DNA of 64,000 bases from Microbacterium enclense (GTDB taxonomy: Bacteria > Actinomycetota > Actinomycetes > Actinomycetales > Microbacteriaceae), in assembly GCF_004022425.1 (NCBI RefSeq), contig NZ_RBZY01000007.1:10441-74440 (forward strand), read 5' to 3'. A program made the position numbers and the translations under genes. Shown here piece by piece: positions 25,368-44,012 of this stretch; the stretch's first letter is position 1; every line of letters starts with the position of its first letter. The notes beneath the pieces are model-generated. The model had not been told where the DNA came from. It saw only the letters and a list, made by a program, of their open reading frames with translations, and ran no database searches.

Positions 25368-25396
25368 CGCGCGCCTCCTTGATGGACGTACCATTG

Positions 25397-25429
25397 ATAG
25401 GATCCATTTGACACCAAACTGGATCCAAA
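25397..25429. promoter_or_regulatory. GGATCC operator pair B
   Basis: Cores at 25400-25405 and 25421-25426 are 21 bp apart in the 83-bp gap between divergent starts 25367 and 25451. A TTGACA (25408-25413) lies between the cores and may be the -35 of the rightward promoter, so binding should block it. Confidence 0.8.
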
Positions 25430-25450
25430 CCGAAACCCGGGGACCCCGTC

Positions 25451-26458
25451 ATGATTCAGACCGTTCTCGGCCCCGTCGAGCCGGCCCAGCTCGGGCGCAC
25501 ATCGACGAACGAGCATCTGCTCGCCGACTCGCGGCACCTGCGGCGACCGCTGCGCGGCGGCGAGTGGTGGGACGGCGACGTCCGACCCGAGAACCTCGGC
25601 GACCTGCGCTGGAACTGGCTGGCCTCGGCCGACAACCTCCACCTGGATTCCGCCGACGTCGCCGTCGACGAACTCGCCCGGGCTCACGCCGACGGGCTCC
25701 GGGCGGTCGTCGAAGCCACGTCGGTCGGGATGGGACCCGACCCCTCGCGGCTGCCCGACATCGCGCGGCGGGCCGGAATGCACGTCGTCGCGGCCTTCGG
25801 CAGCTACATCGACAAGACGCTGCCCGAGAGCTGGAAACAGCAGAGCGACGACGACATGCGGGCGGTCTTCTCGCGCGCGCTGTCGGAGTCGATCCCGGGC
25901 AGCACGGTGCGTGCGGGTCTTCTGGGACTGATGGGAACGAGCGCCGACATCACGCTCGCGGAGGAACGCGCGCTGCGGGCCGCCGGATCCGCCGCCGCCG
26001 AAGCCGGGTGCGCCGTCTCGATCCGCCTCGACGCGGCAGCCCGCCGCGGGCCGGAGGTGGCGGCGTTGTTGGCATCCGAGGGGCTGGACCCGCGCCGCAT
26101 CCTGTTCTGCAACATCGACAAGGTGATGGATGCCGCCTACGTGCACGACATCGTCGACACCGGCGCGGTCGTCGAGTTCGCCTTCGGGAGCGAGAACTAC
26201 TTCGCCGACGGGGCGCGGGATGCCACCGACGGCGAGCGCATCGCATTCCTCCTCGCGCTGTGCGAGGCGCGGCCGGAGGCGCGCATCACCCTGTCGTCCT
26301 CGGTGTGGACCAAGGGACAGCTCGCCCGTCACGGCGGGATGGGCTACGGCCACGTCGTGCGACGCGTCGTGCCCGTTCTCGAGCGAGCCGGTGTGCCCTC
26401 GTCCCGTCTCGAGCGCATGCTCGTGACCGAACCCGCCGAGCTGCTCGACCGCGGCTGA
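25451..26458 (+). CDS. Phosphotriesterase-family protein with most metal ligands replaced
   Basis: A 335-aa TIM-barrel protein that aligns along its whole length with phosphotriesterase-homology proteins such as E. coli Php. The metal ligands are not kept: HxH is NEH (Asn20, His22), the bridging Lys is Arg154 (STVRAGLLGL), the two barrel His are Arg192 (SIRLD) and Asn221 (CNIDKV), and the last Asp is Ser284 (LSSSVW). Surrounding family residues, such as GGMGYGHVVRRVVPVL, are intact, so the change looks selected rather than decay. It stands alone, divergent from the amidohydrolase operon, under operator pair B. Confidence 0.83.
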   Translation: MIQTVLGPVEPAQLGRTSTNEHLLADSRHLRRPLRGGEWWDGDVRPENLGDLRWNWLASADNLHLDSADVAVDELARAHADGLRAVVEATSVGMGPDPSRLPDIARRAGMHVVAAFGSYIDKTLPESWKQQSDDDMRAVFSRALSESIPGSTVRAGLLGLMGTSADITLAEERALRAAGSAAAEAGCAVSIRLDAAARRGPEVAALLASEGLDPRRILFCNIDKVMDAAYVHDIVDTGAVVEFAFGSENYFADGARDATDGERIAFLLALCEARPEARITLSSSVWTKGQLARHGGMGYGHVVRRVVPVLERAGVPSSRLERMLVTEPAELLDRG

Positions 26459-29374: not shown

Positions 29375-30837
29375 GCCTCCGGGATCGCGATGACGACGCT
29401 CTTGGTCTCGAGGAACCCGCGCAGGCCCTCCTCGCCGAGATCTCTTCCGAGTCCCGACTCCCCCGTGCCGCCGAACGACAGCGCCGGGTCGAAGAGGTTG
29501 TACGTGTTGATCCACACCGTCCCGGCGTCCAGTGCGGCCGCCATCCGGTGCGCCCGGCCGAGGTCGCGCGTCCACACGCCCGCCGCGAGGCCGTACGCGG
29601 TGTCGTTCGCGATGCGGATGGCATCCGCCTCGTCGTCGAAGGGGATGATGCCGACGACCGGACCGAAGATCTCCTCGCGGGCGATGCGCATGTCATTGGT
29701 GACGCCGGCGAACAGGGTCGGCTCGACGTAGTACCCCGGCTCGCGCACCCCGCCACCGGCGAGCAGCGTCGCGCCCTCGTCGACGCCCGCGCGGATGTAC
29801 CCGAGAACACGCTCGCGTTGCTCTTCGGAGACGAGCGGCCCGACCGTGATCCCTCCGTCCAGGCCGTCGCCGACCGGCACGCGACCCACGGCCGCCGTCA
29901 TCCGCTCCGTCATCTCGGCGAGGATCGACCGCTGCACGAGGAGGCGGCTCCCCGCGGTGCACATCTGCCCCGAGTGGCCGAAGGAGGCGCGCATCGCGGT
30001 GAGGACCGCGGCATCCAGGTCGGCGTCCTCGAACACGATGTTCGGGCTCTTGCCGCCGAGCTCCAGCGTCACGCGCGTGAAGTCGTCGGCGGCCGCGTGC
30101 GCGACGAGCCGACCGACCTCGGTCGAACCGGTGAAGGTGATCTTCGCGATGCCGGGGTGCGCAGTCAGGGCCGCCCCGACCGAGCCGTCGCCGGTGAGGA
30201 TGCTCACCGTGCCGGCGGGAACGCCCGCCTCCGCCAGGATGCCACCGAGCCGCAGCAGCGTGAGAGGGGTGTCCTCCGCGGGCTTGGCGACCACGGGGCA
30301 GCCCGCGGCGAGCGCCGGGGCGAGCTTGAACGCCGCGGTCATGATCGGGAAGTTCCACGGCAGGATGATCGCCACCGGGCCGACCGGTTCCTGCACCGTG
30401 TAGACGTGGTGCCCGCCGCCGTCGACCGCGACGACCGTGCCGCCGAGGCGCGAGGGCGCGCCGGCGAAGTGCCGGAATGTCCGCGCGGCCATCGCCGTGT
30501 CAGCCCGCGACCGCTCGATCGGCTTACCGTTGTCGCGCGTCTCGAGCACCGCGAGCTCTTCGAGACGCTCCTCGATGAGGTCGGCGACGCGGTTGAGGAT
30601 GCGCGCGCGCTCGAGCGGGGCGAGGCCGCGCCAGCGCCGGTCGGCGTGGGCTTCGACGGCGAGCGCGACCGCGGCGTCGACATCCGCGGCCGTGGCGTCG
30701 GCCACGGTGGTGAGCACCTCACCGGTGGCGGGGTCGATCACCGCGCGCGCGGGGCGCTCGCCGCGTGGCATCCGCTCTCCCCCGAGGAGGAACGGTTCGT
30801 ACTCCGGCAGGGCGGTGACGGTGGTGCGAAGGCTCAT
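29371..30837 (-). CDS. NAD(P)-dependent aldehyde dehydrogenase
   Basis: A 488-aa aldehyde dehydrogenase with catalytic Glu in LELGGKSPNI, catalytic Cys in FGHSGQMCTAGSR and the NAD-binding FTGSTEVGR. It resembles betaine- and gamma-glutamyl-aminobutyraldehyde dehydrogenases. The gene begins seven bases after the ligase stop. In the putrescine gamma-glutamyl route a ligase, an amine oxidase and an aldehyde dehydrogenase act in series, and this operon supplies the first and third. Confidence 0.92.
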   Translation of the reverse strand: MSLRTTVTALPEYEPFLLGGERMPRGERPARAVIDPATGEVLTTVADATAADVDAAVALAVEAHADRRWRGLAPLERARILNRVADLIEERLEELAVLETRDNGKPIERSRADTAMAARTFRHFAGAPSRLGGTVVAVDGGGHHVYTVQEPVGPVAIILPWNFPIMTAAFKLAPALAAGCPVVAKPAEDTPLTLLRLGGILAEAGVPAGTVSILTGDGSVGAALTAHPGIAKITFTGSTEVGRLVAHAAADDFTRVTLELGGKSPNIVFEDADLDAAVLTAMRASFGHSGQMCTAGSRLLVQRSILAEMTERMTAAVGRVPVGDGLDGGITVGPLVSEEQRERVLGYIRAGVDEGATLLAGGGVREPGYYVEPTLFAGVTNDMRIAREEIFGPVVGIIPFDDEADAIRIANDTAYGLAAGVWTRDLGRAHRMAAALDAGTVWINTYNLFDPALSFGGTGESGLGRDLGEEGLRGFLETKSVVIAIPEA

Positions 30838-30844
30838 GGGGTCC

Positions 30845-32374
30845 TCAGAAGATCTCGAAGTACTCGCGCTGCTCCCAATCGGAGACGTGGCGAAGGTAGC
30901 GGGCGAACTCCGCCCTCTTGATGGTCGCGTACCAGTCGACCACGACGTCGCCGAGCGCGGCCCGGAAGACGGCGTCGGCCTCGAACGCGTCGACGGCGGC
31001 GCCGAGGGATGCCGGCAGCGACGGCGCGTCCGTGCGGTACGGGTCGGTGGTCGGCGCGGGCGGGATGAGACCCTGGTCGATGCCGTCGACGCCGCTGATC
31101 AGCTGCGACGCGATGTAGAGGTACGGGTTGGCCGCGGGCTCGCCCGAGCGGTTCTCGAGGCGCGTCGCCGGGTCGCCGACGCCACCGACCGCGCGCACCA
31201 TCGCCCCCTTGTTGTCGATGCCCCACGCGATGCGGTCGGGCGCGAGGGAGTTCGGCTGGTAGCGCTTGTATCCGTTGACCGTCGGGGTCGTGAAGACCGC
31301 CGCGGCACCGGCGTGCGCGAGCAGGCCGCCGAGGTACGCCGAGCCGAGCAGCGACAGCGTCGTGCCGGGAGCGTCAGGCATGAACGCGCCGCGTCCGGTC
31401 GCCCGCTCGGTGAGCGATTGGTGCAGGTGCCACCCGGTGGACGCGCCCTCGGCCCCCTGGGGGCGCGACATGAAGGTCGCGTGGTAGCCGAGGCCCGCGG
31501 CGATGCGTCGGACCGCTGTGCGGCACAGGACGATGGCATCCGCGATCTCGGCGGCGGAACCTGCCTCCATCGTGATCTCGAACTGGCTGGGGCCGAACTC
31601 CAGCTCGATCGAGCGCAGCGGCAGGTCGAGGAGCGTGAGCCCGCGGTACAGCGCGTCGACGAGGGGCTGCATGCGGTCGAGCCCCTCCTCGAGGAGCAGC
31701 TGCGATCCGCGCGTGGTCGGGGCGGTGAGAGATGCGGCGCCCGGACGACCGGGCGCACCGACATGCTCGGTGCCGAGGGCGGCATCCTCGGCACGGAAGA
31801 CGTGGAACTCCAGCTCGGCGCCGACGGTCATGTCGTAGCCGCGCGAGGCGAGCGTGGTCAGCTCGTTGCGGAGAATCGTCCGGGTGCAGAACGGCACGGG
31901 GCTGCCGTCGGGGAAGTGCAGGTCGCACAGGAGCCAGGCGGTCCCCGGCGCCCACGGCAGCACGCGGAACGTGGTGGGGTCGGGCACGAGCACGATGTCG
32001 CCCGCGCCGCTGAACCCGGTGATTCCGACGCCCGTCTCGGCGCTGAACACCGAGAAGACCGACTGGCCCGACGTGTCCTTCAGCAGCAGCGAACTCGGCG
32101 CGGTGACGCCCGACCGCAGCGCCGCCGCGAGACCCCCGCGCGCGATGGTCTTCCCGCGCAGGATGCCGTGCTGGTCGACGAACGAGAAGCGCACCATGTC
32201 GATGCCGAGCTCGTCCACGACGCGGCGCATCTGACCGGCCGCGGCGTACTTCGCCTCGCTCCACAGCCCGTGGCGGTGAACGAAACCCTCGCGGTCGGCC
32301 GCGAGCATCGGGCGGGCGGAGATGCCGCCACCGCTCTCCGAGACGGGGCGCTCGTCGACGTTGCGCTCACGCAT
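30845..32374 (-). CDS. Glutamine synthetase-like gamma-glutamyl-amine ligase
   Basis: A 509-aa member of the GS catalytic family (GlnT/PuuA/IpuC/AtdA1 type). The N-terminal beta-grasp part has VRFSFVDQHGILRGKTI, the catalytic domain ELEFHVF, the Glu-rich SIELEFGPSQFEITM, HLHQSL and NSLAPDRIAWGIDNKG. Such enzymes use ATP to join glutamate to an amine through an amide. It overlaps the Rieske oxygenase gene by 8 bp, so it and the oxygenase are probably made together, as gamma-glutamylanilide synthase is with aniline dioxygenase. The amine is unknown. Confidence 0.88.
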   Translation of the reverse strand: MRERNVDERPVSESGGGISARPMLAADREGFVHRHGLWSEAKYAAAGQMRRVVDELGIDMVRFSFVDQHGILRGKTIARGGLAAALRSGVTAPSSLLLKDTSGQSVFSVFSAETGVGITGFSGAGDIVLVPDPTTFRVLPWAPGTAWLLCDLHFPDGSPVPFCTRTILRNELTTLASRGYDMTVGAELEFHVFRAEDAALGTEHVGAPGRPGAASLTAPTTRGSQLLLEEGLDRMQPLVDALYRGLTLLDLPLRSIELEFGPSQFEITMEAGSAAEIADAIVLCRTAVRRIAAGLGYHATFMSRPQGAEGASTGWHLHQSLTERATGRGAFMPDAPGTTLSLLGSAYLGGLLAHAGAAAVFTTPTVNGYKRYQPNSLAPDRIAWGIDNKGAMVRAVGGVGDPATRLENRSGEPAANPYLYIASQLISGVDGIDQGLIPPAPTTDPYRTDAPSLPASLGAAVDAFEADAVFRAALGDVVVDWYATIKRAEFARYLRHVSDWEQREYFEIF

Positions 32375-33704
32375 CGACGGTCTCCTCGGCGGTCGCCTTC
32401 GGGGCGGCCCACGGCGAAGCGGAGCGACGCTCCTGCTCGCGCTGCACCCAGCGCTCCTGCCACGCGTCGTTGGCCGAGATCGTGTCCATCGCGAGGGGGC
32501 CGGTCAGCTTCGCGGCCTCCTCGGCACTCACGGGGTGCGAGGGCGTCTGCCCGCCCGCCGCGAAGGAGTCGATCGCGCGGAGCAGCAGGCGCCGGTTGGC
32601 CGTGACGGCGCGATCCGAGACGCCGAGGCGCTCGACCGTCCGATCCTGGATCGGGCCCATGCTCTCGACGGCCCACTGGTCGTGGACGTTGATGTCGAGC
32701 CCCATGCCCGTGTAGGTGAGGTCTTTCTGCTCCTGCGGGTCGAACCCCCAGTTGTTGTCGCGGTTGCGGATCGGCCGATAGTCGGGCAGCGTGACGCCCT
32801 CGAGCCGCTGCTGCAGCAGGGTGTCTTTGTCGGTGACCTCGGCGAAGTCGTACCAGATCATGTACCAGTAGTGATGCTCGTCATCGATCGGCACGTGCCA
32901 CTGCGTGAACACCTTGGTGTTGCCGAAGGGCACGACGAAGGCGTTGGGGAACATGAGGTTCGTGACGCGCACGTGCTTGATGTCGTCGGTGAGCTGGCGC
33001 AGCGCGAAGACGCGGAGACCGTGCTCGGCGCTCTCGACCTCGATGTCGGGGCGGTAGCTCTCGCCCACGAGCATCGAGAGCTTCTTGCCGGTGCCCTCGA
33101 CCTCCTCGGCGAACTGCTGCCCGTACATCTCGCGGGGGTCTTCCTGGATGAAGCGGTGAAGGAACGACACGTGGCTCGGGTCGATGCCGCCCTCCAGGCC
33201 CTGCAGCCAGTTGCAGTCCCACAGGCCCTTGAAGGCGAACGTGTACTCCTCGGGTGCGACGAAGCAGTCGTAGTCGGGGAACGGCGGCGGGTCGCCCGCG
33301 CCCATGTAGGTGAAGATGATGCCGTTCTTCTCCACGCACGGGTAGTTGGCGATACGGATCTTGCCGAGGAACTGGCTGTGCTCGGGCTCGGCCGGCTGCT
33401 CGACGCACTTGCCCTCGCCGTTGTAGAGCCACCCGTGATAGAGGCACCGGATGCCGTCCTCCTCGAGGCGGCCGTACGACAGGTCGACGCCGCGGTGGGC
33501 GCAGTACCGGCTGATGAGACCCCACCCCTCGCGCTTCTTGAACAGCACGAGGTCTTCGCTCATGATGCGGACGGCCTTCACCGGCCGCTCCCCCGGCATC
33601 TCCGACACGAGCGCGGCGGGCTGCCAGTACGAGCGCAGGAGGTTCCCGAGCGGAGTGCCGGGACCGGACCGGGTGATCTTCTCGTTGTCTTCCTGCTTCA
33701 GCAT
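32367..33704 (-). CDS. Rieske non-haem iron oxygenase, phthalate-dioxygenase type
   Basis: A 445-aa terminal oxygenase. The Rieske cluster ligands are Cys68/His70 (CAHRG) and Cys87/His90 (CLYHGW), and the mononuclear iron site is in GGIDPSHVSFLHR near residue 180. The domain order and length match the homomeric phthalate 4,5-dioxygenase/phenoxybenzoate dioxygenase class, which has no beta subunit and takes electrons from a phthalate-type reductase, encoded immediately upstream. Such enzymes hydroxylate, demethylate or dealkylate aromatic and heterocyclic rings. ATG at 33704 has GAGAGG upstream. Confidence 0.92.
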   Translation of the reverse strand: MLKQEDNEKITRSGPGTPLGNLLRSYWQPAALVSEMPGERPVKAVRIMSEDLVLFKKREGWGLISRYCAHRGVDLSYGRLEEDGIRCLYHGWLYNGEGKCVEQPAEPEHSQFLGKIRIANYPCVEKNGIIFTYMGAGDPPPFPDYDCFVAPEEYTFAFKGLWDCNWLQGLEGGIDPSHVSFLHRFIQEDPREMYGQQFAEEVEGTGKKLSMLVGESYRPDIEVESAEHGLRVFALRQLTDDIKHVRVTNLMFPNAFVVPFGNTKVFTQWHVPIDDEHHYWYMIWYDFAEVTDKDTLLQQRLEGVTLPDYRPIRNRDNNWGFDPQEQKDLTYTGMGLDINVHDQWAVESMGPIQDRTVERLGVSDRAVTANRRLLLRAIDSFAAGGQTPSHPVSAEEAAKLTGPLAMDTISANDAWQERWVQREQERRSASPWAAPKATAEETVDA

Positions 33705-33742
33705 CGCCGTTGCCTCTCGTCGTCGGTGGGTGTGTGAGGCCC

Positions 33743-34690
33743 TCAGGCCTGAAGAACCAGGACGGGGCACGCCGAGCGCGAGACGCACACCATCATGCAG
33801 TCGTTCGCGGCACGCTCCTGGGCCGTCAAGACGAAGTCGCGGTGCTCGACCTCGCCCTCGAGCACGCCCGTCTCGCAGCTGCCGCAGATGCCCTCTTCGC
33901 AGTCGGAGAGCACGTCGACACCCGCTTCGCGGATGACCTCGAGCACGCTCTGCTCGGGTTCGACGGTCAGCTCGACGCCCGTGAGCGCGAGGCGCACCGA
34001 GAACGGCCCGCCCGGCTCGTACTCCACGACGGGCGCGGTGAAGTACTCCAGGTGCAGACGACCGGATGCCTCGGGCACCAGGCGCGTGACCTCTTCGAGC
34101 ATCCGCGCGGGACCGCACGCGTACACCGCGGCACTCGGGTGCGCCGCGAACTCGGCCTCGAGGTCGGCACGCACGCCCTCGTCGCGGGCGACGACGTCGA
34201 CGGCTCCCCCGGGGATCGCGGCGAGGTCGTCGAGGAATGCCATGCGGGTGCGGGAGGCACCGAGGTACAGCACCCGCCACGGCACGCCCGCCGCGGCGGC
34301 GGCGCGCACCATGGGCAGAACCGGCGTGATGCCGATGCCGCCCGCGAGGAACAGGTACTCGTCGGCGGGGTCGAGACCGAAGTGGTTGCGCGGTCCGCGG
34401 AGCGTCACGACGTCGCCCGGGCGCAGCCGCTCGTGCACGGCGCGGGAACCGCCGCGGCTCTGCTCCTCGCGGAGGACCGCGATGCGGTACCGCGCCGAGC
34501 CCGGCTCGCCGCACAGCGAGTACTGGCGGACCGGAGCACCGGCGAGCGCCAGGTCGATGTGGGCACCGGGCGTCCACTCGGGAAGCGGACCATCGACGCC
34601 CTCGAGTTCCACCGAAATCACGTCGGCGGTCTCGAGCGTCAAGGAGCGCACTCGGGCGCGGCGCTCGGTGGCATCCTCTCGACTCGTCAT
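33743..34690 (-). CDS. Phthalate-dioxygenase-reductase-type flavin/iron-sulfur reductase
   Basis: A 315-aa single-chain reductase: FMN-binding barrel (residues about 10-105, RQYSLCGEP), NAD-binding domain (LAGGIGITPVLPM) and a C-terminal plant-type [2Fe-2S] domain with Cys in SDCEEGICGSCETGV. It passes electrons from NADH to the adjacent Rieske oxygenase. It is first in the leftward operon; the ATG at 34690 is four bases from the nearest GGATCC core, so the operator's AGGA can act as ribosome binding site, as at the cupin gene. Confidence 0.92.
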   Translation of the reverse strand: MTSREDATERRARVRSLTLETADVISVELEGVDGPLPEWTPGAHIDLALAGAPVRQYSLCGEPGSARYRIAVLREEQSRGGSRAVHERLRPGDVVTLRGPRNHFGLDPADEYLFLAGGIGITPVLPMVRAAAAAGVPWRVLYLGASRTRMAFLDDLAAIPGGAVDVVARDEGVRADLEAEFAAHPSAAVYACGPARMLEEVTRLVPEASGRLHLEYFTAPVVEYEPGGPFSVRLALTGVELTVEPEQSVLEVIREAGVDVLSDCEEGICGSCETGVLEGEVEHRDFVLTAQERAANDCMMVCVSRSACPVLVLQA

Positions 34691-34691
34691 G

Positions 34692-34724
34692 TTTGGATCC
34701 TAACAGATACAGATTGGATCCCGA
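34692..34724. promoter_or_regulatory. GGATCC operator pair C
   Basis: Cores at 34695-34700 (TTTGGATCCTAA) and 34716-34721 (ATTGGATCC) are 21 bp apart, between the reductase start and the divergent gntR gene. Placement beside gntR makes that regulator the prime candidate to bind all five pairs. Confidence 0.82.
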
Positions 34725-34782
34725 ATGCTTGGTCTGGGAGCCACATACTCGTGAATTGCGTGGCATCGCGAATGCGGTCTGC

Positions 34783-34788
34783 TAGGTT
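34783..34788 (+). promoter_or_regulatory. -10-like element of gntR
   Basis: TAGGTT lies 44 bases before the chosen ATG and eight bases before an in-frame GTG at 34797, so a leaderless start there is an alternative. Confidence 0.4.
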
Positions 34789-34832
34789 CACACCTCGTGG
34801 GATCGCGACCACGACCGACCGAGAGGGGCATC

Positions 34833-35555
34833 ATGGCCGCAGGGGGCGACACCGAGATCTCGGCGGCCGGGGGGCACGCCCTCGTCGATGAGATCGCTGC
34901 CAAGATCCGGGAACGGATCATGTCGGGCGACATCCCCATCGGTTCGCAGCTGCGGCAGGCGGAGCTCGCGAACGACTTCGGCGTCAGCCGGACGCCCGTT
35001 CGCGAGGCCCTCCGGCAGCTGCAGACGGGCGGCCTCATCGAGGTCCTCCCCAACCGCGGCGCCGTCGTGCGCGTGCCCGCGCCGTGGGAGGTGCGCGAGG
35101 CGTACGAGGTCCGCGCCGAGCTCGAGGCCCTCGCCGCGGCCCGCGCGGTCGAACGCATCTCGCGGAGCGACGTGACGCGCTTGCGCGCAGCGAACCAGGA
35201 CATGTACGACCGCTCGGTCGAACGCGAGCGGGGGCAGGGCGACCCGGCGCTCGCGAGCCGTCGCGAGAACGACGTCTTCCACAACACGATCGCGGAGGTC
35301 TCCGCCAACGCGCGTCTCGCCCGCGCGATCGAGGAGATCAACGAGACCTTCCCCCGCAACGTGTCGGCTCAGCTGCTGGTCGGCGACGACCGCCACCGCG
35401 AGGAGAACTTTCAGGAGCACGTCCGCATCATCGAAGCGATCGAGCGCGGCGACGCCGAAGCCGCCCGCCGCGAGATGCGCGAACACGTCCTGAAGGCCGG
35501 CGAGCAGCTGGCGCGGTGGTACGAGCGGCGCTCCGCGACGGTGTTCACCGGCTGA
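34833..35555 (+). CDS. GntR-family (FCD domain) transcriptional regulator
   Basis: A 240-aa regulator with a winged helix at residues about 17-82 (QAELANDFGVSRTPVREALR is the recognition region) and an FCD ligand-binding domain to about 220 with metal-ligand-type His/Asp/Asn residues (NDVFHNTIAEVSAN, EEINETF, EHVRIIEAIE). FCD regulators usually repress catabolic operons until an acidic metabolite binds, and recognise short palindromes. It is divergent from the Rieske operon across pair C. ATG at 34833 has GAGAGGGG upstream; GTG at 34797 would add 12 residues. Its last 27 codons are duplicated at 37198-37280. Confidence 0.9.
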   Translation: MAAGGDTEISAAGGHALVDEIAAKIRERIMSGDIPIGSQLRQAELANDFGVSRTPVREALRQLQTGGLIEVLPNRGAVVRVPAPWEVREAYEVRAELEALAAARAVERISRSDVTRLRAANQDMYDRSVERERGQGDPALASRRENDVFHNTIAEVSANARLARAIEEINETFPRNVSAQLLVGDDRHREENFQEHVRIIEAIERGDAEAARREMREHVLKAGEQLARWYERRSATVFTG

Positions 35556-35570
35556 CGCGGGGGCCTTCCG

Positions 35571-36377
35571 TCAGAGGAACGGGGTGAGGGCCGCGCGCAC
35601 AACGCGGGCCGCTTCTTCCGGCTCCACCTGCGGCACACATTGATGACCGAGCGCGGCAGTCCACTCCTCCTTCGTGGGCAGCCGGGCGAAGGACACCCTT
35701 GCCGCGCTCGTGTACGGCCCGAGCTTTCCAAACATCTCGACGGCTTCGCGGTCGATCTTGCCGGCATCCGCCAGCGCCCACAGGTCGTAGAGGTCGCGTG
35801 GCGCCCGACGGTCGCTCCAGGCCGCCAGCTTCGCGGCGGCGAACGCCGCTGCCGTCAGCACACGTAAGCGTGCGGGTGGTGCGTCACTGTAACGCTGCTC
35901 GATCTGTACGACTTCCGCCGGCCACGCGGGATACCCCTGCGCTGAGAGGAGTTGGAGACGAATACGGACCCCGCCGGCCTCCACCACTGACGACTCGGAG
36001 TCAACGGTGTCGCGGAGGCGTGGAGTAAACGTCGGCGTTCCGAACGCACGCCCGAGCCCGCGCACAATGGCCGCCTCTATTCGGTCGCCGATCTCGGCGC
36101 GCGACCCGGAGGCGATGAGGTCGATGTCCTCCGAGAGACGGAGATTCGTCAGATGTGTACGCGCGAGCGCGGTACCCCCGAAGAACACCACATCATCCGT
36201 GGACACCGTAGCGATCGCGGCGAGGGCGTGGGAGATGACGTGATCGCGGACGACCTGCTCCGCAGCAACACCGAATTGCGCCTCGACCACCGCGCGCTCG
36301 TGCTCGTCGAGGACGCCCGGCGTGACACGACTCGCGCGGCTTCTCGGCTTGCGGCCGTCCTGCCTTTCCGCCATCAC
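35571..36377 (-). CDS. AbiEii-type nucleotidyltransferase toxin
   Basis: A 267-268-aa toxin of the AbiE (type IV) system. The nucleotidyltransferase motif is intact: VVFFGGTALARTHL then RLSEDIDLIAS near residues 65-90, with further conserved KLAAWSDRRAPRDLYDLWAL near 205. AbiEii toxins block growth by modifying tRNA or another target. The start is GTG at 36377 overlapping the antitoxin stop, with an ATG as the next codon. It is inserted between gntR and truncated duplicates of neighbouring genes, converging on gntR with 15 bp between stops. Confidence 0.9.
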   Translation of the reverse strand: MMAERQDGRKPRSRASRVTPGVLDEHERAVVEAQFGVAAEQVVRDHVISHALAAIATVSTDDVVFFGGTALARTHLTNLRLSEDIDLIASGSRAEIGDRIEAAIVRGLGRAFGTPTFTPRLRDTVDSESSVVEAGGVRIRLQLLSAQGYPAWPAEVVQIEQRYSDAPPARLRVLTAAAFAAAKLAAWSDRRAPRDLYDLWALADAGKIDREAVEMFGKLGPYTSAARVSFARLPTKEEWTAALGHQCVPQVEPEEAARVVRAALTPFL

Positions 36378-37021
36378 TGCCTGCCCGCTTCCATCTCGTC
36401 GAGAGCCCCACGCACAGCAGCGTTCGCGCGACCGAACGTGTCGACGACACGCCGCAGATCCGCGGGCCCGACCTGCCCGCGCAGGTGACGCGCCGCGTCC
36501 ATGACCTCATCGGGCAGGCCTCCCTGTCCCGGCTTCATCAAGAGGTCGTACAGCGTCTGCGCCCGCGTGGTCACCAGAGCACGTCCGAGCTCGTTCTGTT
36601 CGAGTACGGCGTCGAGACGATCGACATCGCGCGGGACGAGGTGGACAATGCCCCCGGTGTCCAGGGTCACGGGAGGTCGTCCCGCCTCCGGGATGGCAAC
36701 GGTCGTTACACCGATAGCGCGAGGAATCGCTGCCCAATGGCGCGCGGCACCGAGCCCCATGAGGATGGCATTGCGGTTGCCGAACCGTGCAGTGGCCACG
36801 GCCAGCCCCGCCGCTTCCAGGGTGGGGCGCCATTGCCGACCATCGCGACCCTCAGGAGGTGCCGCGTAGACGCCTTTTGCGAGACGGACCAGCGCCCCGC
36901 GGTCGACGAGTCGAGCGATCGTACGCCGCGCATGGGAGAGATCCGGTTCCAGGTCTTGGGGGCGCACCGTCCGGAGCGGCGCACGCTCGATCGCACGCAG
37001 CGCGTCCACGTCGCTGACCAT
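36374..37021 (-). CDS. AbiEi-type antitoxin
   Basis: A 215-aa antitoxin with an N-terminal winged helix (ARRTIARLVDRGALVRLAKG, then VYAAP) and a C-terminal antitoxin domain (NRNAILMGLGAARHWAAIPR, ARAQTLYDLL-like region). It precedes and overlaps the toxin gene. ATG at 37021 has GAGAGG upstream. The long inverted repeat 17 bases upstream fits the negative autoregulation known for AbiEi. The module contributes phage defence or stabilises the island. Confidence 0.88.
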   Translation of the reverse strand: MVSDVDALRAIERAPLRTVRPQDLEPDLSHARRTIARLVDRGALVRLAKGVYAAPPEGRDGRQWRPTLEAAGLAVATARFGNRNAILMGLGAARHWAAIPRAIGVTTVAIPEAGRPPVTLDTGGIVHLVPRDVDRLDAVLEQNELGRALVTTRAQTLYDLLMKPGQGGLPDEVMDAARHLRGQVGPADLRRVVDTFGRANAAVRGALDEMEAGRQ

Positions 37022-37037
37022 CGGATTCACCTCTCTT

Positions 37038-37078
37038 ACTGAGACTAGCGTGACAGCTGGCGTCACGTCAGTCTCAGT
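37038..37078. promoter_or_regulatory. Inverted repeat upstream of abiE, probable AbiEi operator
   Basis: Arms 37038-37054 and 37062-37078 (ACTGAGACTAGCGTGAC and its complement with two mismatches) flank a seven-base spacer upstream of the antitoxin start. Confidence 0.7.
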
Positions 37079-37141
37079 GAGTCTGTTCCGCAGCCGCAAC
37101 GAGCGCGCCTAAGCCCGCGCCCGACCCTCGCGCGGTGCACC

Positions 37142-37197
37142 TCAACCGACCACCAGGGGCGCCGCCATCAAAACGGCCGACGCGCCCATCGCCCGCG
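37142..37197 (-). pseudogene. Truncated 3' end of a second copy of the membrane-protein gene
   Basis: The 56 bases match the 3' end of the gene at 37479 (37479-37534) at 49 positions and encode MGASAVLMAAPLVVG followed by the stop. The upstream coding part is missing and replaced by the gntR remnant. Confidence 0.85.
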
Positions 37198-37280
37198 GAT
37201 GCGCGAGCACGTGCTGAAGGCCGGAGAGCAGCTCGCCCGCTGGCACGAGCGGCGCTCCGCGACCGTGTTCACCGGCTGAC
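37198..37280 (+). pseudogene. Truncated 3' end of a second gntR gene
   Basis: It aligns with 35474-35556 of gntR with about 90 percent identity and encodes MREHVLKAGEQLARWHERRS ATVFTG plus stop, differing by one residue (His for Tyr). Nearly all base changes are silent, so the copy was under selection before it was truncated. It directly abuts the truncated membrane-protein remnant. Confidence 0.88.
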
Positions 37281-37310
37281 GCAGCTACGTGGAGCCTCTC
37301 GCTCTCTGCC

Positions 37311-37424
37311 TCAGCGGCGGGAGACGTGGCGCCGGCGCTGGCTCGGAAGGAACCCGAGGCCGATGGGAACAAGGATCCCCAAGGCGCAAACGATGGCGAC
37401 GACGAGGATGTCCATGTTCTCCAT
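37311..37424 (-). CDS. Possible 37-aa single-span membrane peptide
   Basis: The frame encodes MENMDILVVAIVCALGILVP, continuing IGLGFLPSQRRRHVSRR: one hydrophobic span followed by a basic tail. Third codon positions are mostly G or C as in real genes here. No clear ribosome binding site precedes the ATG, so translation is uncertain. It lies between the gntR remnant and the membrane-protein gene. Confidence 0.45.
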   Translation of the reverse strand: MENMDILVVAIVCALGILVPIGLGFLPSQRRRHVSRR

Positions 37425-37478
37425 CGTCGCACGAGGGAGACAGCGGGGCCAGGGGCCTGCGACGCACTCGGTGCGCCG

Positions 37479-37988
37479 TCAGCCGACCACCAGCGGCGCC
37501 GCCATCAGCACCGCCGACGCGCCCATTGCCAGCGGCGGCAGCCGCGTGACGAGCGGCCGGTCGCGGTGCGCCGTCACGAACAGCGCCACGCCCCCGACGG
37601 CGTACGCGGCCACCCCGACGAGGGTGAGGACCACGAGCGGCACAGCCCCCGCCCCGTGATGGGACGAGCCCGCGGATGCCGGGACGTGAGCCGCGAGCAG
37701 GAGCGCCGCCATGAGCACGGCGCCGAGCGCGTCGAACGCCCGCATCCGCCGGTCAGCGATCCGCCGCGCCGGCCCCGGCGCCACGGCCACCAGCGCCGCG
37801 AGAAGCAGCGCCGCCGCCCAGAACACCGCCGGCACGCTCCCACCGCCGAGCACCATGTCGCCCATCGCGAGGAGCATGAGCGCGGCGATCAGGAGTTCAC
37901 GCACGCGCACGGCGGGGCGATCGGCGGCGACGCAGCACGCGCCCGCCGCCGTCGTCACGAGCGCTCCGGCGTGGAGGACCTCCCCCAT
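37479..37988 (-). CDS. Small polytopic membrane protein of unknown function
   Basis: A 169-aa hydrophobic protein with about five membrane spans and a histidine pair in SSHHGAGAV between spans three and four; resembles DUF5134-type actinobacterial membrane proteins but I am not certain. Its ATG overlaps the stop of the copper amine oxidase gene as ATGA, and that enzyme ends in a histidine-rich tail. A role in copper supply or membrane attachment for the oxidase is an inference from this pairing. A truncated second copy of its 3' end lies at 37142. Confidence 0.75.
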   Translation of the reverse strand: MGEVLHAGALVTTAAGACCVAADRPAVRVRELLIAALMLLAMGDMVLGGGSVPAVFWAAALLLAALVAVAPGPARRIADRRMRAFDALGAVLMAALLLAAHVPASAGSSHHGAGAVPLVVLTLVGVAAYAVGGVALFVTAHRDRPLVTRLPPLAMGASAVLMAAPLVVG

Positions 37989-40015
37989 CAGTGACCGTGG
38001 TGGTCGTGCCCGTGGTGCCCGTGCGCGGAGTGGTCGTGGTGGTCGTGACCGCCCGCGTCGTGGCCGTGGAGCGCGTGTCCCTCGGCCACGGCCCCACCGG
38101 CGCCCGGCGAAGGCGCGTGGCAGTGGTCGCCGCCCGACGACGGCGGCAGGTCGAGCGAGGGGTTCCGCGTGAAGAACCCGTCCGGCTCGAAGCGCAGACC
38201 GATGCGGTGCACCGGCATGATCGGCCACTCCTCGGGCTTCGGGTAGTGGTGCACCCCGACGATCGGCCACAGCACGAGCTCGGCCCCGTCGAGCGGACGG
38301 TCCGCCTGCTGCCACGCCGTGATGCCCTCGGCCTCGAGCGGGGCCTGGTTCGGATAGTCGCCGGTGATGAAGCGCTCGTTCGGGTCGTACGCGGTGGCCC
38401 AGAGGTGCTTCGAGACGAACGGGGCCTTGCGGGCGACGACGCTGCCGGATTTGGCGAACAAACGCGTCGTGTGCATCGCCGACAGGCGGTAGGCGGTGTT
38501 CTCACCGAAGCGGTTCGTGCGCTCGGTGTTCTCCACTCGCCAGTGCACCGCGCGGGAGGCATCCGCCATGCGCCCGGCATCCTTCTCGGACGCGATGACC
38601 TCCGACACCATCTTGACCGCGTTGCCCCAGGGGTTGAGGTCTTCGTCCTCCTCGACCTCGGCGTGCACCTCGACCAGGCGGTTCTTCGGGCCGTCGATCG
38701 CGGTGTCCATGCGCACGGCGAAGTAGTGCTGGTGCGTGGGCGCCTGGACGTTCGGGCTCACCATCCGCCCGAAGGCGGGCATCTTGCCGTCGTCGATTCC
38801 CGAGACCGACAGGATGCCGGTGAGCTTGATCTCCAGCTCGATCGAGCCGTCCTGGTACAGCGACCAGTAGAAGCCGTAGTCGTAGTTCGCGACGGTGGCG
38901 AAGAACGAGATGACGAGGCGGCGCGAGCGGCGGACGTCGGCCTCACCGGTGCGGGTGTTGACGTGCTTCCAGAGGATGGAGGAGTCCTCCTCGTGCAGGC
39001 ACACGCCGTTGGTGATCGTCTGCGCCTCGCCGAGCCCGTCGAGCACGTGGGCGTCGAAGTAGTGGATCTCGCCGAGGCAGTCGCATCCGAGTTCGAGGGA
39101 TGCCGTCAGGGGCCCGGCCCCGTACTCGCCCCAGTCGAAGAAGTTCTTGCGGTACGCCGTCGGGTCGGCGTCGAGGTACGGCACGTACATCTCGTTGACC
39201 GCCGCGCGGCGGAGGATGGGACGCTCGACGTCGCCGTCGCGGTACGCGATGTCGTGCAGCACGAGCCCTTCGCGGTGCGTGAAGCCGATGCGGAACGACC
39301 AGTTCTGCCACGAGACCTTGTGGCCCTCGACGGTGAAGCCGGGGCCCTCGGGCTGCGTGATCTCCAGCGGCGCGACGTGCCGGTCGGGACCCCAGGTGCC
39401 CGAGCGGTAGTTGCCGCCCTCGCTCGCCATCGGGATGACGCCGTGGTCCTCGATGCGGATGATGTCGAGCGTCTCGAGGTCGAGGATCGGCACGAGCCCG
39501 GCGACCGGACGCGCGTAGCCGTTGTCGTCCGCGCTCTCGCGGTACCAGACGGTGCCCCACGACAAGCGACGGTCGGCGAGGTCCTCGGGCTCGAAGCCGG
39601 TGATCGACTCGGGGTCGACCCACACGTGCGTGGTGTCGGTGATCCCGCGCTTGGCGAGGGCTTCCTTCAGGAGCGGGTGCTCGCGGGCGGCGCGGGCGAT
39701 CGCCCGCGCCTCGTCGCTCGAGACGCCGGGGCGCTTGGCATCCACGGGGCTCCAGGATGCCAGCGAGGCCTCGGCGCGGTCGGTGCCCGAGGTCCAGCCG
39801 GTGACCTCCCACGCGGCGTGCGCCGCCGGGTTCATGACCACCAGACGCACGGGGCGCCCCTGACCGGGCGCGAGGCTGCGGGCCAGGCCCTCCTCGACGG
39901 CGATGCCCCAGAAGCGCGGCTCGGAGCCGATGCGCTCGTCCGCGCGCACGAGCGCGGCGACCTCGACGATCTCGCTCGGGGTGAGGGGGTCGCTCCAGTG
40001 CCGGTCGGCGGTCAT
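37988..40015 (-). CDS. Copper-containing primary-amine oxidase with His-rich C-terminal tail
   Basis: A 675-aa copper amine oxidase that converts primary amines to aldehydes, ammonia and hydrogen peroxide. Tyr378 in VANYDYGFYW is the precursor of the topaquinone cofactor; copper ligands are in THQHYFAVRMD and PVHRIGLRFEPDGFF. The N2/N3 and catalytic beta-sandwich domains match tyramine/phenylethylamine oxidases of Arthrobacter. The C-terminus adds about 45 residues unlike the usual family, with over fifteen His in repeats such as HDHHDHSAHGHHGHDHHGH. No signal peptide is visible. RBS AGGAG precedes the ATG. Confidence 0.93.
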   Translation of the reverse strand: MTADRHWSDPLTPSEIVEVAALVRADERIGSEPRFWGIAVEEGLARSLAPGQGRPVRLVVMNPAAHAAWEVTGWTSGTDRAEASLASWSPVDAKRPGVSSDEARAIARAAREHPLLKEALAKRGITDTTHVWVDPESITGFEPEDLADRRLSWGTVWYRESADDNGYARPVAGLVPILDLETLDIIRIEDHGVIPMASEGGNYRSGTWGPDRHVAPLEITQPEGPGFTVEGHKVSWQNWSFRIGFTHREGLVLHDIAYRDGDVERPILRRAAVNEMYVPYLDADPTAYRKNFFDWGEYGAGPLTASLELGCDCLGEIHYFDAHVLDGLGEAQTITNGVCLHEEDSSILWKHVNTRTGEADVRRSRRLVISFFATVANYDYGFYWSLYQDGSIELEIKLTGILSVSGIDDGKMPAFGRMVSPNVQAPTHQHYFAVRMDTAIDGPKNRLVEVHAEVEEDEDLNPWGNAVKMVSEVIASEKDAGRMADASRAVHWRVENTERTNRFGENTAYRLSAMHTTRLFAKSGSVVARKAPFVSKHLWATAYDPNERFITGDYPNQAPLEAEGITAWQQADRPLDGAELVLWPIVGVHHYPKPEEWPIMPVHRIGLRFEPDGFFTRNPSLDLPPSSGGDHCHAPSPGAGGAVAEGHALHGHDAGGHDHHDHSAHGHHGHDHHGH

Positions 40016-40081: not shown

Positions 40082-41581
40082 TCAGGATGCCGGGACGAGG
40101 ACGGCGACCCCGTCGGCGCGGGGATCGCTCGCGGCGTCGCGCACGCCGGCGGTGCGCGACCGGCGGACGAGTTGCACGTGGCCGGCTTCGTCGGCGGGTC
40201 CGGGGAAGGCGGCGATCCCGAGCCCCAGGTACTCGGCCCGCGCGACGACCTCCGGCGCGACACCGGGTTCGGTCACGAGCGTCAGCCGGTCGTGACCGAG
40301 GTCGCGATCCCCGATCACCCAGCGCGGGCGGCCGAGAAGCTCGGCCAGGTCGATGTCCGGGACGGTGGCGTCGGGCAGCACTTGCGCGAGGATCCACGGC
40401 TGCGCCCGGCCGCCCTGGCATCCGGCGACCACCGTCAGGTCACCGCGGTCGACGATCGCGGGCGCGAGCGTGTGCGGCGGGCGGGCGCCGGGGCGGATCG
40501 CCGCGGGTGAGGCGGGGTCGATCGAGAACGCGCCGCCGCGGTTGTGGAGCAGGATGCCGGTCGCGGGGTCGAGCAGTCCGGAACCGAACGTCTGGTAGAC
40601 GCTCTGCACGATCGTCACGGCGTAGCCTTCGTCGTCGATCGCCACCACGGCGGCGGTGTCGCCCTGCGGACGCGGCTCGCCCGGGCCGGTGAGCGCCGGG
40701 GCGTCCAGCGCGAGCAGCGCCTCGAGGTCGACCGGGCCCGCGGCGGGGTCGCCGAGGTGGGCGCCGCGCGCCTGCGCACCGCGGACGCTCGCCTCGAGCA
40801 GGTCGCCCGCGCCGGGATGCCGCCCTCCGGCGGCCGCGACGCCGACGAGGATCGCGCCGACCGACGGCGGCGGGGCGACGCTGTACGCGGCGTCGCCGAT
40901 GGTGCGGGTCAGTGCCGCGGTGACCTCGGGGCGGTAGTCGGCGAAGTCGGCGTCCGTGTGCGTGCCGCCGTGGGCGCGCAGCGTCCGCACGAGAGAGCCG
41001 GAGATCTCGCCGTCGTAGAAGTCGCGCGGGTCGACCGCGAGGCGGCGAAGCGACGCCGCCAGCGCCGGCTGGAGGAGCGCATCGCCCTCGGCGAGCAGCT
41101 CACCGTCACGGGTGAAGACCTCGCGCAGCCCCGTGTCCGCCTGGATCGCGTCGGCGCGCGCGACCAGGGCCCGCGCGAGCCCCGCGCTCACCGGCGTTCC
41201 GCCGTCGGCGACCTCCGCCGCCGACGCCAGTGCCCGCGACACCGGCAGAACCGCGCCGAGTTCGGCGATCGCGGTCCACCCGGCGACCATGCCCGGCACG
41301 GTCACCGAGCCCGCACCGGCGCGCGGCACCTCCCTCCAGGCCGCCGCGGCGTCGGCGACGGCGGCCGGCGCGGTGCCCGCGGCGACGACCGCGGTCGTCG
41401 AGCCGTCCGGGCGACGGACCAGCGCGATGACGTCCCCGCCGAGCGCGCACTGGTGCGGATAGACCACGGTCAGCATCGCGGCCGCGGCGAGCGCGGCATC
41501 CAGCGCATTTCCTCCCGCGGCGATCGCGGAACGTCCCGCGTCGACGGCGGCGGCGTGGGGGGCGGCGAGGGCGATGGTCAC
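40082..41581 (-). CDS. Gamma-glutamyltransferase-like Ntn hydrolase
   Basis: A 499-aa gamma-glutamyltranspeptidase-family protein. The N-terminal part has GGNALDAALAAAAMLTVVYP and the GGD loop; the autocleavage/nucleophile Thr is Thr309 in PQGDTAAVVAID, though the usual following TH is AA. The glycine-rich GFGGGQ-like region is modified. No signal peptide is visible, so it may work in the cytosol, which would suit hydrolysis of gamma-glutamyl-amides made by the GS-like ligase. GTG start, one base after the flavoenzyme stop. Confidence 0.85.
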   Translation of the reverse strand: MTIALAAPHAAAVDAGRSAIAAGGNALDAALAAAAMLTVVYPHQCALGGDVIALVRRPDGSTTAVVAAGTAPAAVADAAAAWREVPRAGAGSVTVPGMVAGWTAIAELGAVLPVSRALASAAEVADGGTPVSAGLARALVARADAIQADTGLREVFTRDGELLAEGDALLQPALAASLRRLAVDPRDFYDGEISGSLVRTLRAHGGTHTDADFADYRPEVTAALTRTIGDAAYSVAPPPSVGAILVGVAAAGGRHPGAGDLLEASVRGAQARGAHLGDPAAGPVDLEALLALDAPALTGPGEPRPQGDTAAVVAIDDEGYAVTIVQSVYQTFGSGLLDPATGILLHNRGGAFSIDPASPAAIRPGARPPHTLAPAIVDRGDLTVVAGCQGGRAQPWILAQVLPDATVPDIDLAELLGRPRWVIGDRDLGHDRLTLVTEPGVAPEVVARAEYLGLGIAAFPGPADEAGHVQLVRRSRTAGVRDAASDPRADGVAVLVPAS

Positions 41582-41582
41582 G

Positions 41583-42680
41583 TCAGATCCCCCGTCGCGC
41601 GGTCGAGACGAAGGCGAGGTCGGGGCGCTCGATCCCGGTGGCGAGGTCGGCGACCGCGTCGCCGATCGCCGGCCCGAACTTGAACCCGTGCCCCGAGCAG
41701 GCCGACACCGCGATGACCTCGGGGGCGTCGGCGAGCGGCCCGATGACGAAGCGCTTGTCCTCGGTCATCGTGTACAGGCACGCGGCGAGTTCGACGGGCG
41801 CCGTGTCGAGCGCGGGAACGTACGCGTGCAGCAGGTCGCGCAGCGCCTCCGCCTCGGCGGGGGTCGGCGGGGCGACGGGCGTCTCGGGGTCCCAGACCTC
41901 GCCGGCATCCACTCCCAGTTTCACGCCGTTCCCATCGGCATCAGGGATGCCGAACACGAGCCCCTCGGGACGATCGACGGAGAAGGCCCCGAGGGCGGGC
42001 GGCAGGCCCGCGGGCTGGCCGGCACGGACGGTGACGGTGAGGATGCGCCAGACCTCGAGCAGGTCGGCCACCGAGGGCAGGAGGCGGGCGGCGAACGCAC
42101 CGCCCGCGACGACGAGACGACGCGCGCGCACGATCCCGCGATCGGTGCGGACTTCGACGCCGTCGGCGATCGAGTCCCAGCCGAGCACCCGCTCGCCGTC
42201 GCGCAGCTCGGCTCCGGCGCCTTCCGCGAGGCGGCGGAGCGCCGCCAGCGACCGTTCGGCCTCGAGCACGCCCGCCGACGGGTCGTACACGGCGCGGTAG
42301 CCGTCGGGCACCGCGAACGACGGCATGAGGGCCGCCATCTCGGCCCGGTCCTCGACGAGGACGCAGTCGGGACCCTGGAGCTGCGACGACCCCTCGTGCG
42401 CGTACAGGCCGCCCGTGCGGTGGAGGAGCGTCTCGCCCGATGCACGCTCGAGCTCGCCCCACGCGTCGACGGCCTTCTCGACGAGCGGGTTCCAGACCGG
42501 GTTCGGGTAGGCGCGACGGATCATGCGGGTACGCCCGTGCGAGGATCCGCGGGAGTGCCCCGCGACGAAGCGATCGATTCCGATCACCCGCGCGCCGCGT
42601 CGGGCGAGGCTGGCGACGGTGGACATCCCGTGGATGCCAAGTCCGAGCACGACGACGTCCGCCGAGGCGACCGCGGTCAT
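41583..42680 (-). CDS. FAD-dependent amine oxidase (sarcosine/N-methyltryptophan oxidase-like)
   Basis: A 365-aa DAO-family flavoenzyme. The Rossmann motif is VLGLGIHGMSTVASLARRG with GIDRF at the end of the second strand, and Cys in SACSGHGFKFGP matches the cysteine that binds FAD covalently in monomeric sarcosine oxidase. These enzymes oxidise secondary amines such as N-methyl amino acids. It overlaps the class V PLP enzyme gene by 4 bp. A second amine oxidase follows two genes later in the same operon, suggesting consecutive N-dealkylation and deamination. Confidence 0.88.
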   Translation of the reverse strand: MTAVASADVVVLGLGIHGMSTVASLARRGARVIGIDRFVAGHSRGSSHGRTRMIRRAYPNPVWNPLVEKAVDAWGELERASGETLLHRTGGLYAHEGSSQLQGPDCVLVEDRAEMAALMPSFAVPDGYRAVYDPSAGVLEAERSLAALRRLAEGAGAELRDGERVLGWDSIADGVEVRTDRGIVRARRLVVAGGAFAARLLPSVADLLEVWRILTVTVRAGQPAGLPPALGAFSVDRPEGLVFGIPDADGNGVKLGVDAGEVWDPETPVAPPTPAEAEALRDLLHAYVPALDTAPVELAACLYTMTEDKRFVIGPLADAPEVIAVSACSGHGFKFGPAIGDAVADLATGIERPDLAFVSTARRGI

Positions 42681-43933
42681 CGCATGATCCCCGTGGCGAT
42701 CGCCGCGACCCCGTCGACGAGGGCCGACACGTCCGTGTCGTCGTTGTACACGTGGGGCGAGGCACGCACGACGCCGGGGACGCCCCGGTCGCCGAGGTCC
42801 CACTGTCCGTGGGTCGCCGGAACCGACACGACCCGCACGCCGCGGCGCGCCAGCTCGACGACGGCGTCCGGGGATGCCACCCCCTCGACGACGAAGGTCA
42901 CGATCGCCGAGCGGGTCCCCGCCGGGTCGGCGACGGTGACGCCGTCGATTCCGGCGAGCGCGGTGCGCAGCCGATCCCCCGCGGACACGAGCCACCGCTC
43001 GGTCGCGGCCAGGCCGCGCGCGGCGGCCTCGTCCAGTGCGGCCCCGAGACCGAGACGCGCGGCGATCGCGCCTTCCCACGTCTCGTAGCGGCGGGCCGTG
43101 GCATCCAGTTCCCAGGACGCGCTGGACACCCACCGGGCACCGCGCACGTCCGGCGCGGCCGGCAGAAGGCGCTCGCGCAGGCCGTCGCGCACGTAGGCGA
43201 ACCCGGTACCGCGCGGGGCGCGGAGGAACTTCCGACCGGTAGTGACCAGGACGTCGCACCCGATCTCGCGGACATCGACCGAGAGATGGCCCACCGACTG
43301 GGTGGCGTCGAGGATGTAGGTCCCGCCGTAGCGCTGCACGACCTCTCCGATCTGCGCGGCCGGCTCGACGAGTCCGGACGACGTGGGCACGTGGGCGACC
43401 GTCACGATCGACGGTACCCCGTCCGAGAGGATCGCCTCGAGGGCTGCGACGTCGACGCGGCGGCGCTCGTCGTACGGGGCGATCACAAGGTCGATGCCGT
43501 GCTCGCGGGCCACGCTCATGAGGTGCAGCGCGTGGCTGACGTACGTGCTGCTCGAGGCGACGATGCGCTGCCCGCGCGTCGGCCGCAGAGCGTCGAGCAT
43601 GACGCGGAGCCCGCTCGAGGCGCTGTCGAACAGCGCGATCTCGCCCGGCTCGGCGCCGATCAGTCCGGCCGCGGAGGAGTAGACCGCGTCGAGGCGGCCG
43701 CGCTGCTCGGCCGCCGCCTCGTACCCGCCCTTCGCCTCTTCCAGACGGAGGTGGTCGACGACCGCGGCCACCACACCCCGCGACGGCAGGGCCGCGCCGG
43801 CTGCGTTGAAGTGACTCGCGAGCGTCGAACCCGTCGTGCGGTCACGCTCGGCGGCGACGTCGATGGTGGGCCCGTCCGCGGGCGACGCGGACGCCGAGGC
43901 CGGTGCGGCGTCTGCGAGGGGGAGCGGGTTCAT
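42677..43933 (-). CDS. Class V aminotransferase-fold PLP enzyme (EgtE/isopenicillin N epimerase-like)
   Basis: A 418-aa PLP enzyme of fold type I, class V. The cofactor Lys is in VTTGRKFLRAPRG and the PLP-ring Asp/His region is YILDATQSVGHLSVD; residues 1-40 are a low-complexity Ala/Ser leader. Closest recognisable types are ergothioneine C-S lyase EgtE, isopenicillin N epimerase and cysteine desulfurase relatives. No other ergothioneine gene is present except the divergent EgtC-like gene. It is the first gene of the leftward operon from pair D. Its true reaction is unknown. Confidence 0.83.
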   Translation of the reverse strand: MNPLPLADAAPASASASPADGPTIDVAAERDRTTGSTLASHFNAAGAALPSRGVVAAVVDHLRLEEAKGGYEAAAEQRGRLDAVYSSAAGLIGAEPGEIALFDSASSGLRVMLDALRPTRGQRIVASSSTYVSHALHLMSVAREHGIDLVIAPYDERRRVDVAALEAILSDGVPSIVTVAHVPTSSGLVEPAAQIGEVVQRYGGTYILDATQSVGHLSVDVREIGCDVLVTTGRKFLRAPRGTGFAYVRDGLRERLLPAAPDVRGARWVSSASWELDATARRYETWEGAIAARLGLGAALDEAAARGLAATERWLVSAGDRLRTALAGIDGVTVADPAGTRSAIVTFVVEGVASPDAVVELARRGVRVVSVPATHGQWDLGDRGVPGVVRASPHVYNDDTDVSALVDGVAAIATGIMR

Positions 43934-43953
43934 GGGCGACGGGATACCTCCGA

Positions 43954-43986
43954 GTAGGATCCAAACATACTACATGTGGATCCAAT
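43954..43986. promoter_or_regulatory. GGATCC operator pair D
   Basis: Cores at 43957-43962 (TAGGATCCAAA) and 43978-43983 (TGTGGATCCAAT) are 21 bp apart between divergent starts 43933 and 44013. Confidence 0.82.
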
Positions 43987-44012
43987 CTGTGTTGGACGAT
44001 CTGGGAGGTGCC

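Follow-up and report, generated by a model that had tools for sequence, protein, structure and literature searches.

How could the gap between two convergent genes come to hold, besides a defence module, a second copy of the end of each flanking gene? The question is raised by a stretch of 64,000 nucleotides (nt) from Microbacterium enclense (assembly GCF_004022425.1, contig NZ_RBZY01000007.1, positions 10,441 to 74,440; G000:C117:10441-74440 in a genome of 149 contigs), hereafter the window. Here a GntR-type regulator gene (gntR) is followed by the genes of an AbiE module, abiEii and abiEi, then by truncated 3' ends ("stubs") of a membrane-protein (mp) gene and of gntR, in this order, and finally by the intact mp gene. 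We propose, with a probability of about 0.72, that the segment records a single illegitimate join by which two alleles of one variable gap, that from gntR to the convergent mp gene of an amine-oxidase cluster, were connected.

Both repeats keep the orientation of the genes from which they derive, the gntR 3' end recurring over 85 nt at 91% identity and that of the mp gene over 57 nt at 88%, and the two stubs abut directly, with the single base 37198 in common. When each stub was shuffled 200 times and compared without gaps to the entire window, the best matches were 48/85 and 37/57, far below the observed 77/85 and 50/57, so that the stubs cannot be ascribed to chance. In the gntR stub, eight codons differ from the intact gene, seven of them silently and one by a replacement of Tyr by His; in the mp stub, all six differing codons outside the two junction codons are silent. 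Thus, the preliminary description of the window, which had reported an mp 3' end joined to a gntR 3' end to the right of abiE, the order of genes given above, and differences of about 10 percent that are mostly silent, is borne out on each of these points (9-12% difference, with one amino-acid change outside the junction codons). Third codon positions hold 12 of the 14 scored differences, a count that leaves out the two mp junction codons (binomial P 8e-5), and we therefore conclude that most of the divergence arose while the copies were functional, not yet truncated genes of separate lineages, which argues for two source lineages; import of related DNA is a natural source of the second copy. 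The junction codons contain one further change, Leu to Arg, that may have been caused by the join itself. No function is expected of the stubs, which lie upstream of the abiE palindrome discussed below and behind the mp gene.

What kind of join produced this arrangement? Aligned by eye beside mp and gntR orthologues, the junction shows a microhomology of 3-4 nt at most and is not placeable to one base. The mp end and the gntR end accordingly meet with little or no homology, as is characteristic of homology-facilitated illegitimate recombination, a process for which the original papers reportedly dealt with Acinetobacter, Pseudomonas stutzeri and Streptococcus pneumoniae. In the related strain B19, the proposed operator, the spacer and the mp end continue straight into the intact mp gene; in the window, the sequence switches to the gntR end after 57 nt of mp.

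The joined stubs appear to be peculiar to this genome. In a sample of 366 Microbacterium genomes, one per species, searched with the 141-nt double stub as query and with the best two places scored per genome, 77 genomes gave some match, in many cases short and weak, and the joined stubs were found in the window's own genome only (1/366). Both gene ends are present in seven other genomes, namely G009 (T32), G054 (B19), G166 (5K110), G197, G333 (CSI-V), G356 (RURRCA19A) and G364 (FXH-28). A deeper search of these seven, with 40 of 94-115 candidate places scored per genome, found each end once and always in the order gntR-...-mp, the extra match in 5K110 (38 nt, E 4e-4) being at chance level. The left arm of the window, by contrast with the joined stubs, is an existing arrangement: its similarity to T32 spans 30800-37083 and that to B19 extends into the mp end, these two strains being 96% identical to each other on this arm; T32 has gntR-abiEii-abiEi-operator-mp without stubs, and B19 and RURRCA19A share the abiEi-operator-mp end of the left arm. 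Among plasmids, 12 records gave weak partial matches only, covering 2-7% of the query.

The proposed scenario would accommodate these findings as follows. Allele 1 would have been gntR-abiEii-abiEi-operator-mp and allele 2, existing elsewhere, gntR-small open reading frame (ORF)-mp. DNA of one of the two, whichever was the incoming one, was probably imported from a related Microbacterium; one side would have been integrated by homologous recombination, and on the other microhomology would have joined the end of mp to that of gntR. Such an event would spare abiE, the small ORF and the intact copy of each flanking gene, with the two stubs as its residue, and a single rearrangement accounts for all the parts. 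The gap of the right arm (37283-37478, 196 nt), which contains the small ORF, has no match in 59 named loci or in four further compared stretches. In the genus sample, with the best two places scored per genome, the gap is matched in 21 of the 366 genomes, own genome included, and in the other 365 there is no match beyond about 90 nt. The small-ORF region has 74-81% DNA matches over about 70-90 nt in five other Microbacterium genomes, around which (3 kb) no gntR, mp, oxidase or AbiE match is found, and the ORF itself matches no Pfam family. A Ku gene is detected in the genome, and the same search is positive in 1 of 14 controls; a ComEC gene is detected as well, which says little and does not show competence, given that 10 of 14 controls are positive.

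Several observations weigh against this scenario. No sampled genome has the arrangement gntR-small ORF-mp, which leaves both allele 2 and its donor hypothetical; a counterpart of the right arm (gntR end, 37-codon ORF, mp) is missing from the corresponding site of every genome compared. Furthermore, the stubs are somewhat more distant from eight orthologues than these are from each other (6-10 differences compared to a mean of 4.75 for gntR, 5-9 compared to a mean of 3.7 for mp), which makes some change after truncation, or a deeper donor, possible. Finally, according to sliding identities the window has its affinity with T32/B19 on the left and with CSI-V/G197 over part of the right, T32 and B19 themselves looking atypical at 40.5-44 kb, and the tree of the left side places the window with a support of 0.034; neither the sliding identities nor the trees locate a crossover or identify the resident allele.

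Two patterns in these comparisons are of separate note. Over window positions 40500-44000, T32 and B19 are mostly 77-88% identical to both the window and CSI-V, more divergent than they are on the left, which suggests that their lineage received an import. FXH-28 is 93-94% identical to the window at 25000-26000, 82-85% up to 29500 and about 90% thereafter, a sign of other exchanges in the cluster.

Could the same sequence have arisen by another route? The preliminary description had invoked a deletion between tandem copies of the cluster: two diverged gntR...oxidase copies, created for example by single-crossover integration, would have been reduced by a deletion that fused the mp end in the first copy with the gntR end in the second. 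The final sequence would be identical, and transformation can create tandem merodiploids (PMC3784515). However, this route requires a second full cluster and an extra deletion, and traces of such a cluster fail to appear. The own genome has a single gntR end and a single mp end in addition to the stubs (40 of 77 candidate places scored); it encodes just one further copper amine oxidase, which is 40% identical and comes from a different contig. A gntR protein match at E <= 1e-40 occurs exactly once in each of the eight genomes (all candidates scored, 41 of them in the own genome), and each of the seven relatives has one oxidase at 96-97%, further oxidases or fragments in six of them being 39-46% identical and located on other contigs or far away. 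Neither the own genome nor any of the seven relatives with both ends thus shows a further close gntR or oxidase, or another copy of the cluster; a second gntR or oxidase-mp pair in relatives, which the preliminary description had proposed to look for, did not materialize, and we regard the tandem route as improbable, although a short-lived tandem copy would be compatible with the final sequence. What stands of the earlier idea, a union of two related clusters with abiE in one, is that two diverged gntR-mp versions were joined, with abiE inside one of them as in T32; there is no call for a merger of two whole catabolic clusters, since neither gntR nor the oxidase has a second close copy in any of the eight genomes.

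Cargo flanked by two copies of the 3' end of a gene also resembles the result of attachment-site duplication, as if a circular or cassette-like element (gntR end-abiE-mp end) had been integrated in the 3' end of gntR, the gntR ends serving as attachment-like repeats. This origin we consider very unlikely, and duplication by an integrase was rejected: no integrase is apparent by eye among the ORFs of the segment (family searches covered only the two abiE proteins, the small ORF and mp), the repeats are 91% alike and thus differ by 9%, there is no gntR repeat in T32, B19 and RURRCA19A, whose abiE or abiEi occupies the same site, and the mp stub would be unexplained cargo. Tandem duplication in place of the segment from gntR end through abiE to mp end, after which the second abiE would have decayed and been replaced, would yield the order of the stubs but was rejected as hardly credible in view of the codon-position bias, since decay after duplication would not give differences of 9-12% that are almost all silent. 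An assembly artefact joining the alleles of two strains, conceivable in a draft genome of so many contigs, is likewise very unlikely in our view, the contamination estimate being 0.09, the join lying inside a contig of 83 kb, and no second allele having been found in the rest of the assembly.

Table 1. Features of the gntR-mp region of the window (positions counted from the first nucleotide of the window).
Feature	Position	Strand	Evidence and comments
Intact gntR (FCD subfamily) regulator gene, left arm	34833..35555	+	Pfam GntR and FCD; DNA 87.6-92.6% identical to 7 relatives
abiEii, nucleotidyltransferase toxin of AbiE type IV system	35571..36377	-	PF08843; PADLOC AbiEii 1.8e-103; motifs I-II, III, IV
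abiEi, antitoxin/regulator	36374..37021	-	PF13338; PADLOC AbiEi 4e-83; start checked
Proposed abiE operator, imperfect palindrome	37034..37081	.	Just upstream of abiEi
Spacer of left-arm type, abiE operator to mp end	37100..37141	.	37101-37130 matches B19 at 86.7%, beside the B19 mp gene
mp 3'-end stub, end of left arm	37142..37198	-	88% to 37479-37535; in relatives the same position continues into intact mp
Join of the two arms	37191..37200	.	Comparison with mp and gntR orthologues
gntR 3'-end stub, start of right arm	37198..37282	+	91% to 35474-35558; 90-93% to 7 relatives
37-codon ORF, right-arm gap	37311..37424	-	MENMDILVVAIVCALGILVPIGLGFLPSQRRRHVSRR; hydrophobic small protein by eye
Intact mp gene, right arm	37479..37994	-	86.6-89.7% to 7 relatives; Pfam: sub-threshold DUF5134 only
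Copper amine oxidase gene, right arm	37988..40015	-	PF01179 and PF02728

The module enclosed in allele 1 has the expected composition. The abiEii gene is convergent to gntR, 15 nt from its stop codon, and abiEi and abiEii, assigned by Pfam and PADLOC, are adjacent, co-directional and overlap by 4 nt, as befits a two-gene AbiE system. All four motifs of AbiEii are found (hG[G/S]...DhD, KLxAaxxR and [KR]DxxD, at residues 66, 183 and 194), under the definitions given in PMC3985639. Judged by its sequence, AbiE is intact and should act as an ordinary type IV toxin-antitoxin and abortive-infection module. A literature search, judged by title, found no paper on AbiE in Microbacterium.

Upstream of abiEi lies a palindrome with 17-nt arms, 15 positions of which are complementary, and a 7-nt loop, which we propose as a candidate abiE operator, in agreement with the inverted repeats described upstream of abiEi (PMC3985639). 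A similar palindrome (about 77-87%) precedes abiEi at other loci of G189, G112 and G312 without a gntR or mp match in the 3-4 kb compared; hence an ordinary gntR/mp terminator was rejected. These are three of the 12 abiEi loci outside the gntR-mp site, and the absence of a match to the window palindrome at the other nine counts against the operator; seven of the nine carry a palindrome of their own above 20 shuffles and two, L016 and L021, do not, so that 10 of the 12 have some upstream palindrome above the best of 20 shuffles. A palindrome in G325 was left out of the count, the nearby abiEi match being only 24 residues long. At the gntR-mp site itself, palindromes of the abiE type occur without an abiE match in the locus in CSI-V (L039:10763-10822), 5K110 (L037:5603-5646) and FXH-28 (L042:11721-11781). 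These would appear to be scars of abiE loss, and abiE would therefore be old at this gap in the clade.

The gap holds different cargo even among these few genomes. It measures 1923 nt in the window, 1732 nt in T32, with abiEii and abiEi, and 1681 and 1671 nt in B19 and RURRCA19A, respectively, where an Abi_2 gene (Pfam), PD-T4-5-like in the B19 copy, accompanies abiEi. In these last two strains (B19 L036:5847-7321, RURRCA19A L040:10839-12348) the Abi_2 gene takes the place of abiEii, of which there is no match in either locus, and is convergent to the orphan abiEi, possibly a swap of the abortive-infection gene with retention of the antitoxin. Given that the sister strains T32 and B19 carry different cargo (abiEii-abiEi and Abi_2-abiEi), exchange of alleles at the gap is evident. 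In FXH-28, the gap of 3141 nt contains the same Abi_2 gene, an abiE palindrome that lacks its abiEi, and an ORF of 611 residues that matches neither a Pfam family above cut-off nor any PADLOC entry; in CSI-V, 95 nt contain the palindrome copy only. Sugar-use-like cassettes with LacI-type regulators and glycoside hydrolases occupy the gap in 5K110 (L037:5672-11682) and G197 (L035): in the former (6097 nt), the palindrome directly after gntR is followed by genes for a carboxylesterase, an MFS transporter, glycoside hydrolase 3 and a LacI-type regulator (Pfam), and in the latter (9214 nt), which has no palindrome match, the ORFs were read by eye as genes for a sialidase-like protein, LacI, glycoside hydrolase 3 and an ABC transporter of sugars. 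Among ten more distant loci (L044-L053), the mp match is present in six (L044, L046-L050), at 44 to 489 nt from gntR and with no abiE match. Thus, cargo at this gap seems to be confined to the window's clade among the loci compared.

The locus offers a worked example of allelic cargo that was added at one site instead of replaced, the stubs recording the event, and it shows fast turnover of abortive-infection genes in a small clade (abiE, Abi_2 with an orphan antitoxin, operator scars). A broader generalization is tempting, if speculative and on balance doubtful: the gntR-mp gap could be an integrase-free cargo site at which alleles are swapped but also appended to one another by illegitimate joins; small defence genes such as abiE would then accumulate, flanking genes would stay intact and gene-end stubs would become a general mark. 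If additive joins are common, such stubs would provide a simple means of finding them.

How does all this compare with known systems? Defence hotspots are pictured as fixed sites between conserved genes at which the defence cargo varies. The gntR-mp gap resembles the E. coli defence islands and hotspots (PMC10121019) in that its defence cargo varies while its place between conserved flanking genes is constant, but it is small, has no visible integrase, also holds sugar-use-like cassettes and is represented by eight genomes only. Compared to AbiE as characterized in PMC3985639, with which they share the bicistronic abiEi-abiEii organization, the four AbiEii motifs and, as a candidate operator, inverted repeats upstream, the genes of the window are nothing unusual; the unusual feature is the adjoining scar. 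For this scar, a parallel exists in the orphan immunity-gene arrays of the Vibrio cholerae type VI secretion system, where homology anchors an incoming allele, part of the resident one is displaced and old leftovers persist beside the new, a similar mechanism being proposed by the authors (PMC5361080); those arrays, however, keep whole immunity genes, perhaps under selection, whereas Microbacterium keeps only gene ends of 57 and about 82 nt that are probably functionless. The process also resembles homology-facilitated illegitimate recombination in E. coli conjugation (PMC3240628), in which homologous integration on one side and a join with little or no homology on the other add foreign DNA. 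That recombination is known from experiments, whereas the Microbacterium case is read from the end product, with a hypothetical donor and a presumed homologous side. The scar would be a good example of this already known kind of process, plain to see but an ordinary product of DNA exchange among related bacteria.

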